DNA of 64,000 nucleotides from an uncultured Spirochaetaceae bacterium (lineage in GTDB: Bacteria; Spirochaetota; Spirochaetia; Sphaerochaetales; Sphaerochaetaceae): NCBI GenBank assembly GCA_944389295.1, contig CALXLV010000043.1, forward strand, positions 1 through 64,000, read 5' to 3'. Position 1 is the first letter of the stretch; each line of letters opens with the position of its first letter. This document shows positions 29,813 through 50,405 of this stretch, in pieces. The position numbers were made by a program, and so were the translations under genes. The notes below the pieces were generated by a model. The model searched no databases. It saw only the letters and a list, made by a program, of their open reading frames with translations, and was not told the origin of the DNA.

Positions 29813-30334
29813 TCAGGCTACAGGCTCCATCTCATCTGTACCTTCAATGTCCGTACCGGGATTTCCTTCCTCCTCCGGATCATCCGGCTGTTCCGGGTTA
29901 TCAGTCTCGGGATCATCAGATTCCTCAGGATCATCTGTACCGCTGCCGCCAATAACGACGCCCGCCGTTATGCTGGAAGCTGCAACTGTATATTCATCAC
30001 CATTGATTGTCACAACGATATCGGTGTCATCAGCACCGACTGTGAAACTCATGGTATAATCGCTGTCTGCTTTTTCAGCTGTCACCTTAAGCGACCAGTT
30101 TTCGCCTGCTGTATAGGTATAAGTAACAGAATATCCGCCAACATCTGAGATTGTCTTATCAGAAACATTAGCTGATGCATCGGTGATATCCTTTGCCGCC
30201 GCCTCATAGAATGACTTTGCAAGCTCAAGGTCCGTCTGAGAGATTGCAGGCGTACCGTTGTCAGAATCATCATCACAGGCAGCAAATCCGAATACAACCA
30301 TCATTGCAAGAAGAGCAATAAGAATCTTCTTCAT
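29813..30334 (-). CDS. Lipoprotein under a poly-G promoter (phase-variable candidate 1)
   Basis: A 173-residue lipoprotein: signal MKKILIALLAMMVVFGFAAC with the lipid-bearing Cys at residue 20. Residues about 30-115 form a folded part (LAKSFYEAAAKDITDASANV, SDVGGYSVTYTYTAG, SFTVGADDTDIVVTINGDEYTV) that resembles the protein at 49698, for example LAxSxYxxAA and SDVGGxxxT. The C-terminal 45 residues are an acidic, Pro-rich tail (DDPEESDDPETDNPEQPDD), likely an extended surface region. Strong GGAGGATTTGAA ribosome site. The promoter has nine G between -35 and -10. Confidence 0.82.
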   Translation of the reverse strand: MKKILIALLAMMVVFGFAACDDDSDNGTPAISQTDLELAKSFYEAAAKDITDASANVSDKTISDVGGYSVTYTYTAGENWSLKVTAEKADSDYTMSFTVGADDTDIVVTINGDEYTVAASSITAGVVIGGSGTDDPEESDDPETDNPEQPDDPEEEGNPGTDIEGTDEMEPVA

Positions 30335-30364
30335 TTCAAATCCTCCATAGATTTTGATACATGC

Positions 30365-30394
30365 ATCCTACCCCCCCCCGTTCATTATTGTCAA
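30365..30394 (-). promoter_or_regulatory. Poly-G promoter of lipoprotein 1
   Basis: On the minus strand TTGACA (30389-30394) and TAGGAT (30365-30370) are separated by 18 bases, of which nine are a run of G (30371-30379) directly next to the -10. A change of one G alters the spacing by one base. A spacer of 17 needs eight G, so expression should depend on tract length. Confidence 0.85.
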
Positions 30395-48185: not shown

Positions 48186-49598
48186 TTATTGTGCCTCTCC
48201 GGATTCTGCAGGTGAAACTGACAGCCACTGTATTGAAGTCAGATCAACTGGATTGTCCTTAACCTTTATTTCATCGAATACCGCACCATCAAGCCAGTAT
48301 ATTTCTCCCGATGATCCATTGCTGAAAACGATTTTGAATGTTGTTTCATCAGTATCGGCCAGTGTTATTTCAGGTTCCCGTGAGAAATCACCATGCACCT
48401 CAAATGACAGATTGGTATTATCGAGAACCTCATCAATCTCATTTTCGGTTTTGCAGAGAGAAACATTTATGTTTTCAGAACTTATCCTGTAGCTATCTGC
48501 TGTAAAGGTTCCAGATTCATTAAAAGAACCGATAAAGGTTATAGTAGCATCTCCATCAGAGGTTTTGACCGGACTTATACCAGGCAGATCATTGATTCCT
48601 ATTGACTCAAGATATTCGCTGATTTCCCGTGATGTCGAATACTTGTAACCAGTCATTTTTATTCCGACGGTGATTTCATTATCAGTCTTCTCAATAGCCG
48701 TCTTCTCAAAGCTGTCATTATTGCTTTTGCCATTGAGAGATGAGATGAGGCGCTGACTTCCGAACATCGTGATATACGGCAGAGGTGTGGCTGCTGCAAA
48801 ATCTATATCTGGAGCTATCCTTATCTCCGGAGCAAGTTCTGAGACAGTATTCTTCCAGCTGACCTCTGACGAATTCCCATTGAAACTGTTATGAATCTTC
48901 ACGTCATTGTCCTCTGCGCCAGGCAGGTAGAACCTGTTGTAACTTATGGAAACAGCATTCTGCAGATCGGATTGATCTCGAAGTTTTACTAGATTGATTG
49001 TCAGCCCAAGTTCAAATAAGCCATTGAAGGAATCCACGGTGAGAATGCATGATTCAGTTCCGTCATAGAATTCTACAGGAGCTTCATTCACTGTCTCAGT
49101 TGAATATTTACCTGTGATCCTGAGAGTGAGGAGGGGTCCCAGAAATTCTTCCGTATATAGTACCTTGGGTGATAATGTGATCTGTAGATCACCTGATTTC
49201 AATCCAGAAGGATAATCATTGAAAGATGTGATTATCTGCATTGTGAGATCAGGATCAACTGCTGCGCCATTAAGTATTCCTCTGAATAAAATTCCGTCAT
49301 CTTTTTTAAGGGCTTCAGCCACCACATTGCGCAATTCTGTTTCTGAGGTGATTGAATTTCCATTGATTGCAGCATCTTTCAGATAAACAGCAGAATCGCC
49401 AGCAGCATTCCCATCAAGGAAATCAAAAAAGCTGCCAGTCACATCTGATGAGAGCTTATCCATGTCAATGGTATTTAACACTTCAGCCAGCGATTTCTGT
49501 TCCTCTGATACAATATGTGGGTCACATGAGACCGCCATTATGATGGCAGACATCATGAGAACAATAGAAAAAATCTTCAAATGTCTCATTTTTTTCAT
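48186..49598 (-). CDS. Large predicted lipoprotein of unknown function
   Basis: A 470-residue lipoprotein: signal FSIVLMMSAIIMAVSC with Cys at about residue 25. The mature protein is acidic, with many short strands and repeated turns (IDMDKLSSDVTGSFFDFLDG, ILTVDSFNGLFELGLTINL, VSLCKTENEIDEVLDNTNL). No family is recognised. The gene is AT-richer than its neighbours before 47 kb. SD GGGAGG precedes the ATG. It diverges from the poly-G lipoprotein gene, sharing a 99-bp region, and is monocistronic. Surface-exposed lipoprotein is a reasonable expectation, not shown. Confidence 0.75.
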   Translation of the reverse strand: MKKMRHLKIFSIVLMMSAIIMAVSCDPHIVSEEQKSLAEVLNTIDMDKLSSDVTGSFFDFLDGNAAGDSAVYLKDAAINGNSITSETELRNVVAEALKKDDGILFRGILNGAAVDPDLTMQIITSFNDYPSGLKSGDLQITLSPKVLYTEEFLGPLLTLRITGKYSTETVNEAPVEFYDGTESCILTVDSFNGLFELGLTINLVKLRDQSDLQNAVSISYNRFYLPGAEDNDVKIHNSFNGNSSEVSWKNTVSELAPEIRIAPDIDFAAATPLPYITMFGSQRLISSLNGKSNNDSFEKTAIEKTDNEITVGIKMTGYKYSTSREISEYLESIGINDLPGISPVKTSDGDATITFIGSFNESGTFTADSYRISSENINVSLCKTENEIDEVLDNTNLSFEVHGDFSREPEITLADTDETTFKIVFSNGSSGEIYWLDGAVFDEIKVKDNPVDLTSIQWLSVSPAESGEAQ

Positions 49599-49637: not shown

Positions 49638-49668
49638 TTGACGGTTTTGTACGGGGGGGGGGTAGAAT
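49638..49668 (+). promoter_or_regulatory. Poly-G promoter of lipoprotein 2
   Basis: TTGACG (49638-49643) and TAGAAT (49663-49668) are separated by 19 bases, of which ten are a run of G (49653-49662) directly before the -10. Loss of two G would give the ideal 17. The layout mirrors that at 30365-30394, and the ribosome site TGGAGGATTTGAAATGAA is identical in both genes. Confidence 0.87.
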
Positions 49669-49697
49669 CATGTTACCAGATTATTGGAGGATTTGAA

Positions 49698-50405
49698 ATG
49701 AAAAAAACATTTTTCATTGCTATTTGTGCGATTGCGATGCTTTTCGCATTCACAGCCTGCTCAGAAGATAATGGTATTGACTATGCAGACAACAACCTTG
49801 CAGCTGACCTTGCAGAATCAATCTATGCCAAGGGTGCTGCAGAAAGTCTCGTCGCAGCTGCAAACGAAAAGGGAAGCGATGTGGGTGGCCTGACAATAAC
49901 ATCATATGGTTTCGCGGGGGGAAACACACCTACGATTCCGAATACAGGAGCCCCGGTTCAAACATCAATTGAGGTCACCGTAGAAATTACAGGTAAATAT
50001 ACTGCTGGTTTCCATCAGAAAACTCATTCATTCAGGTCTCTTAAAGATGGTAGTGGAACGGTTACTGTCAATGGCCGCATAAGCAATACTGATGGTGTTC
50101 TTAATTTTGTGGCTGAGAGTTACACTGCTTCTACGACTGAGGACGTCGTAATTATGGATACTGATGGAGACTACAAAGGCGAGCATACTTTCAAAGTCGC
50201 AAAGATAGAGGGTATTGCAGATGGAAATATCAAGATGGAGAATGGAAAATTTACGACTGATGGCATGACACTCACGCTTCCTACAGCTGACAAGGTTGAA
50301 GTTTATCTTGATAAAGACCCCGTTGATTACAACAAGCTCTGCTCGACCGTCGGTGTAACTCCGGGTGAATATAAGATTACATTCATCCCTGAAAATTTAC
50401 AGTAA
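49698..50405 (+). CDS. Lipoprotein under a poly-G promoter (phase-variable candidate 2)
   Basis: A 235-residue lipoprotein with signal MKKTFFIAICAIAMLFAFTAC, Cys at about residue 21. Early residues (LAESIYAKGAAESLVAAANE, SDVGGLTITSYG) resemble those of the protein at 29813, so the two are paralogues; the remainder (ITGKYTAGFHQKTHSFRSL, GTVTVNGRISNTDGVLNF, YLDKDPVDYNKL) is different and longer and lacks the acidic tail. The strong GGAGGATTTGAA ribosome site is shared. Function is unknown; a surface lipoprotein subject to on/off switching is the working idea. Confidence 0.82.
   Translation: MKKTFFIAICAIAMLFAFTACSEDNGIDYADNNLAADLAESIYAKGAAESLVAAANEKGSDVGGLTITSYGFAGGNTPTIPNTGAPVQTSIEVTVEITGKYTAGFHQKTHSFRSLKDGSGTVTVNGRISNTDGVLNFVAESYTASTTEDVVIMDTDGDYKGEHTFKVAKIEGIADGNIKMENGKFTTDGMTLTLPTADKVEVYLDKDPVDYNKLCSTVGVTPGEYKITFIPENLQ

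Follow-up and report, generated by a model that had tools for sequence, protein, structure and literature searches.

The window, the whole 64,000-nucleotide stretch that was analysed, is part of contig C43 of a 1.98 Mb assembly in 46 contigs that is 87% complete; the data used throughout are MAG assemblies, one per species. At 49638-49668 on the forward strand, a −35-like hexamer TTGACG (49638-49643) precedes a spacer with a total length of 19 bp (9+10), composed of a constant 9-bp part, GTTTTGTAC (49644-49652), which is the N9 arm common to most members of the family described below, and a variable part consisting of a G10 tract (49653-49662). The spacer is closed by a −10-like hexamer TAGAAT (49663-49668), and a ribosome site plus start, TGGAGGATTTGAAATGAA (49685-49702), leads into a 235-aa lipoprotein gene (49698-50405, forward strand) whose product begins with MKKTFFIAICAIAMLFAFTACSED. 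A twin arrangement is found on the reverse strand near 30.3 kb, with a −35 hexamer TTGACA (30389-30394), a G9 tract (30371-30379) within an 18-bp spacer (N9 + G9), a −10 hexamer TAGGAT (30365-30370), the ribosome site TGGAGGATTTGAAATGAA (30330-30347) and a 173-aa lipoprotein gene (29813-30334). On the other side of the first promoter, a divergent lipoprotein-like gene of 470 aa (48186-49598, reverse strand) starts 40 bp upstream.

The initial annotation had read the architecture of both promoters correctly, including the 19-bp spacer, the tracts of 9 and 10 G and the identity of the ribosome sites. Indeed, when up to three mismatches are allowed, TGGAGGATTTGAAATGAA has only two matches within the window, both exact, against 0.04 expected. 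The paralogy that had been claimed for the two lipoproteins holds for the signal peptide and a short stretch, since the N-terminal ~85 aa are 36% identical (E 5e-8). Runs of at least eight G occur at two places within the 64 kb (five overlapping matches against 1.15 expected, a number reached by 2 of 100 shuffles), so that the G-run taken alone is just mildly unusual, while the joint architecture is more than that.

That such promoters form a family across the genome, as had been proposed, is borne out by a genome-wide pattern search, which recovered further copies. The genome holds 20 G-runs of at least 8, ten of which lie in TTGACR-N8-10-G9/10-TAxxxT promoters ahead of lipoproteins starting with MKK. 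At all ten loci, a homopolymer is placed between the −35 and −10 hexamers in a spacer around 17 bp, the actual lengths being 17 (n=1), 18 (n=4) and 19 bp (n=5). The family is also genus-wide: TTGAC-N8-14-G8 is present in 38 of 48 congeneric genomes, in nearly all of which the reversed pattern has no occurrence, and tracts of 8-12 G are seen at many loci in several species. One further tract, in contig C36, is additional to the ten promoters. There, two G9 tracts lie 30 bp apart (C36:49741-49780), the upstream one directly behind its hexamer in TTGACA-G9-TAAAAAG and the downstream one in TTGACA-N8-G9-TAGATT, both ahead of a single lipoprotein gene; this pair is possibly a doubled switch. The remaining G-runs are partly coding and are found in an epimerase-like gene (C28:7653-7661), near a lipoprotein start (C31:14231-14240) and in poly-C lipoproteins (contigs C4 and C5); the runs in C28 and C31 are likely to mediate translational phase variation.

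The site can be viewed as a sigma-70-type promoter in which the −35/−10 spacer would hold a slippable G-run. Slipped-strand mispairing would then add or drop a G, moving the spacer between 17, 18 and 19 bp and switching a surface lipoprotein stochastically, with the N9 arm plus G8 giving the optimal 17-bp spacer. We infer independent variation of the tracts, which had been suggested for the two promoters of the window, from paralogues, which carry G9 or G10 and have spacers of 17-19 bp. In Treponema pallidum, tp0126 is transcribed best with a 17-bp spacer set by its G-run, and in vivo the tprL promoter has a variable poly-G tract of between 7 and 11 G (PMC7864442). The promoters described here resemble those of T. 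pallidum tp0126 and Neisseria meningitidis porA in having the G-run between −35 and −10, but differ from them in that about ten lipoprotein promoters per genome have a common design and leader, and in being known from sequence alone. Moreover, tp0126 is treponemal, whereas the present host belongs to a gut Sphaerochaetaceae lineage, so that the promoter family alone extends a known treponemal mechanism to this group. It is unlikely that the tracts are static and that G9 and G10 are fixed differences between paralogues without phase variation. Such a reading would suit a comparison made between paralogues with one assembly per species; nevertheless, it fits poorly with runs of 8-12 G at many loci and species, with the classic type of coding poly-C tract seen in C4 and C5, and with the length variation measured for promoter poly-G in T. 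pallidum (PMC7864442).

The G-runs of this genome are also associated with a mobile element. Eight contigs start with a common stretch of ~125 bp or more and then continue into sequence unique to each, where a G-run lies near position 158 (in C11, 315). The common stretch represents an IS3-family left end, with the tip TGAACCTTCTCGAATTAGTGGACA and an inward-reading orfA (MPKRYPRQFRKMVAELICVQNEGTIKTAEEF...), while the right end, ...GTCCACTTTTTTCGGAAGTGCCC, is found at eight contig ends. OrfB matches rve (PF00665, 3.8e-11) and HTH_21; a 169-aa part matches NF033516 (transpos_IS3) at 2.6e-36, under the whole-protein cut-off because the protein is partial. The OrfA and OrfB frames overlap around an A7, and the element thus has the OrfA and overlapping OrfB with rve/DDE integrase core of the IS3 family. 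Members of this family generate target duplications of 3-4 bp and have imperfect terminal inverted repeats, usually TG...CA. Here, the left terminal repeat TGAACCTTCTCGAATTAGTGGACA and the reversed right one, GGGCACTTCCGAAAAAAGTGGACA, match in their inner part, and the right tip is not TG. As nearly every copy is broken at a contig end and no intact copy with both flanks is present, ends can be paired only by 3-bp duplications: for five of the nine left ends, the same 3 bp occur at some right end. When the left flank in C4 is joined to the right flank in C22 over their common CTT, the C4 reading frame also runs on to a stop 41 codons later; this pairing is putative, since C19 also ends in CTT.

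A search for IS ends made independently of G-runs gave eight places, to which a variant end in C32 adds a ninth. These nine are all the left ends found in the genome, and each has a G9-10 run at 29-32 bp; conversely, at nine of the 20 G-runs an IS left end lies 29-32 bp away on the 5′ side, with the same orientation every time. The distance from the tip to the first G is 29 bp in one case, 31 bp in five and 32 bp in three. None of the eight right ends lies beside a G-run, and no G or C run of at least 7 is present within the next 200 bp. Among the 92 contig ends, only the nine IS left ends have a G or C run of at least 8 within 400 bp, although several other repeated elements also end contigs. 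The chance of finding a junction in register is ~2e-5 per junction (20 tracts in 1.98 Mb), a figure that treats junctions as independent events, as their differing flanks support. This occupancy of G-runs was invisible to the initial annotation because it lies outside the window. In the window itself, the predicted insertion point (49621/49622, forward strand), placed 31-32 bp 5′ of the G-run, is empty in this genome; given the start of the divergent gene 40 bp upstream of the promoter, an IS at this point would fall between both genes.

All nine junctions of this genome are at contig ends, and short-read assemblers break at repeats, which could create spurious poly-G by contig ends. Such an artefact is extremely improbable: the breaks fall inside the IS, as a repeat predicts, and each junction continues past the G-run into unique sequence of its own. 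An equal pattern is seen where the junction is away from a contig end (L128, L129, L133, L137, L151, L189 and L193), and the contigs stem from different assemblers and studies.

Related copies are carried by uncultured Spirochaetales, Spirochaetaceae or Sphaerochaetaceae, and within the phylum Spirochaetota strong matches to the element are confined to the family of the window. Six genomes of the same genus (G014, G025, G027, G039, G042 and G044) harbour IS copies that are 77-87% identical. G-runs of 9-12 are found at the equivalent place in L128-L133 and L135-L137, and a G10 in L151, a copy from another genus of the family. In 19 of 19 spirochaete junctions measured, the C-run is 47, 49, 51 or 52 bp from the GACA box of the IS (52 bp in both L130 and L135). 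When the home genome and other species are taken together, 19 of 22 left junctions lie beside a G-run at equivalent spacing. The three exceptions without a plain G-run are L139 (GGTGGTGGAGGGGG), L142 and L152, the last of which seems to abut another repeated element; L142 alone is a clearly decayed copy, so L139 and L152 stay exceptions. In G039, the interval from tract to IS contains GAACTRACCCCCGAAAGGTAGACAC in both targeted promoters, L130 and L135, together with a GACAC box that resembles the IS end.

Altogether, we favour, with a probability of roughly 0.86, a reading in which the locus is a promoter with a slippable G-run and an IS3-family element preferentially targets G-runs. The IS would insert with its left (orfA) end 29-32 bp 5′ of the G-strand, in one orientation, whether the run lies in a promoter or in a coding sequence. 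Alternatively, the IS might insert anywhere, with harmless or useful insertions near phase-variable surface genes being kept by selection; such genes are often dispensable, and an insertion that falls upstream of the −35 leaves the promoter intact. This is quite improbable, as selection leaves unexplained the 29-32 bp offset and single polarity shown by all nine own copies, coding ones included, as well as the conservation of the offset in other species, and other repeated elements at the contig ends of this genome are not beside G-runs. Similarly improbable is the recognition of the promoter, or of RNA polymerase bound there, by the transposase or a host factor. Promoters do make up most of the targets, and this extends to Bacilli, as in L189 with TTGACA-N9-G10-TATAAT. 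However, the G-run is the only feature common to the target flanks, and the targets in C4, C5, C14 and C33 lack a TTGAC hexamer suitably placed before the tract. The C4 and C5 runs are each the coding poly-C of a lipoprotein reading frame, read in the opposite direction, which makes the run rather than the promoter the common feature. No G-less promoter is targeted among the nine own copies.

Targeting of G-runs by this element can be compared to that of known mobile elements. Tn7 recognises attTn7 through TnsD and inserts next to it, with spacing and orientation both fixed. The present element shares these two constraints; unlike Tn7, it is an IS with two ORFs and a single DDE transposase, in which no separate target-selector genes were seen, and its target is generic, with many per genome. 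The IS3-family elements IS1397 and ISKpn1 are likewise highly selective in their targets, and this selectivity is reported to be determined by the transposase (PMC1525189). These elements insert in REP palindromes, whereas here the target is a homopolymer and insertion occurs ~31 bp beside it, the G-run being all that the target flanks have in common. No published homopolymer- or poly-G-targeting IS was found in the open-access literature. The target choice of DDE transposons is seldom reducible to a simple sequence rule, and the apparent rule here, insertion in one orientation ~31 bp from the 5′ side of a G-run of at least 9, is directly testable. Phase-variable tracts would also serve as landing sites, and looking beside the IS would offer a route to phase-variable loci in uncultured genomes that needs only their sequence.

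Beyond the spirochaetes, a contig of an uncultured Bacilli (L180, isolate Lapin-013) encodes an OrfA 60% identical over the best segment, with a C11 outside the left end. In the order to which it belongs (35 of 385 genomes in one scan and 32 of 370 in another), related elements often have C8-C11 outside the left end, commonly in TTGACA-N8/9-Gn-TATAAT-like promoters. The association is restricted to some IS3 lineages, which the OrfA tree separates: a C8+ run lies at most 400 bp upstream of orfA in 14 of 26 in-clade Bacilli elements, leaving 12 without one, and in none of 25 elements belonging to other IS3 lineages (Fisher 1e-5, with rows within a lineage not independent). The distance from the tract to the GACA box varies by lineage, being ~36-39 bp for the L204 type, ~50 bp for L199 and L209, and ~67-77 bp for the L187 type. 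It appears probable that, in a Spirochaetota-Bacilli lineage of IS3 elements, transposases read homopolymeric G-tracts and gauge a lineage-specific distance, switch loci serving as landing sites. If so, transposon spread would be tied to phase variation via hypermutable switch loci.

We infer that recognition of the G-run lies with the transposase itself. Spirochaete IS ends have GGGTA just inside the box, and a GGG at this place is common in in-clade Bacilli ends (16 of 21) and rare in those of other lineages (1 of 26). The target run may be read by the DNA-binding domain that also recognises such a GGGTA-type motif inside the IS ends; the motif suggests, without showing, that the same protein surface is used, and this idea is weakened by L187 and L196, two targeting Bacilli elements that lack a subterminal GGG. 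A mirror model, with the target G-run as far outside the tip as the GGGTA lies inside, roughly fits the spirochaete copies (31-42 vs about 36-39); it was demoted to just a hint because of these two elements and of the lineage-dependent distances in Bacilli.

The TTGACA-N8/9-G-run-TATAAT design itself is also present in the distant Bacilli order of G139 (L187, L189, L190, L208 and others), and G170 has 43 G-runs of at least 8 in about 1.2 Mb. In L189, the interval from the C10 tract to the IS end contains TTATCATTTTTTTAGACAC, which resembles an end from a different lineage within this IS clade, and the tract may have been used by two elements in turn.
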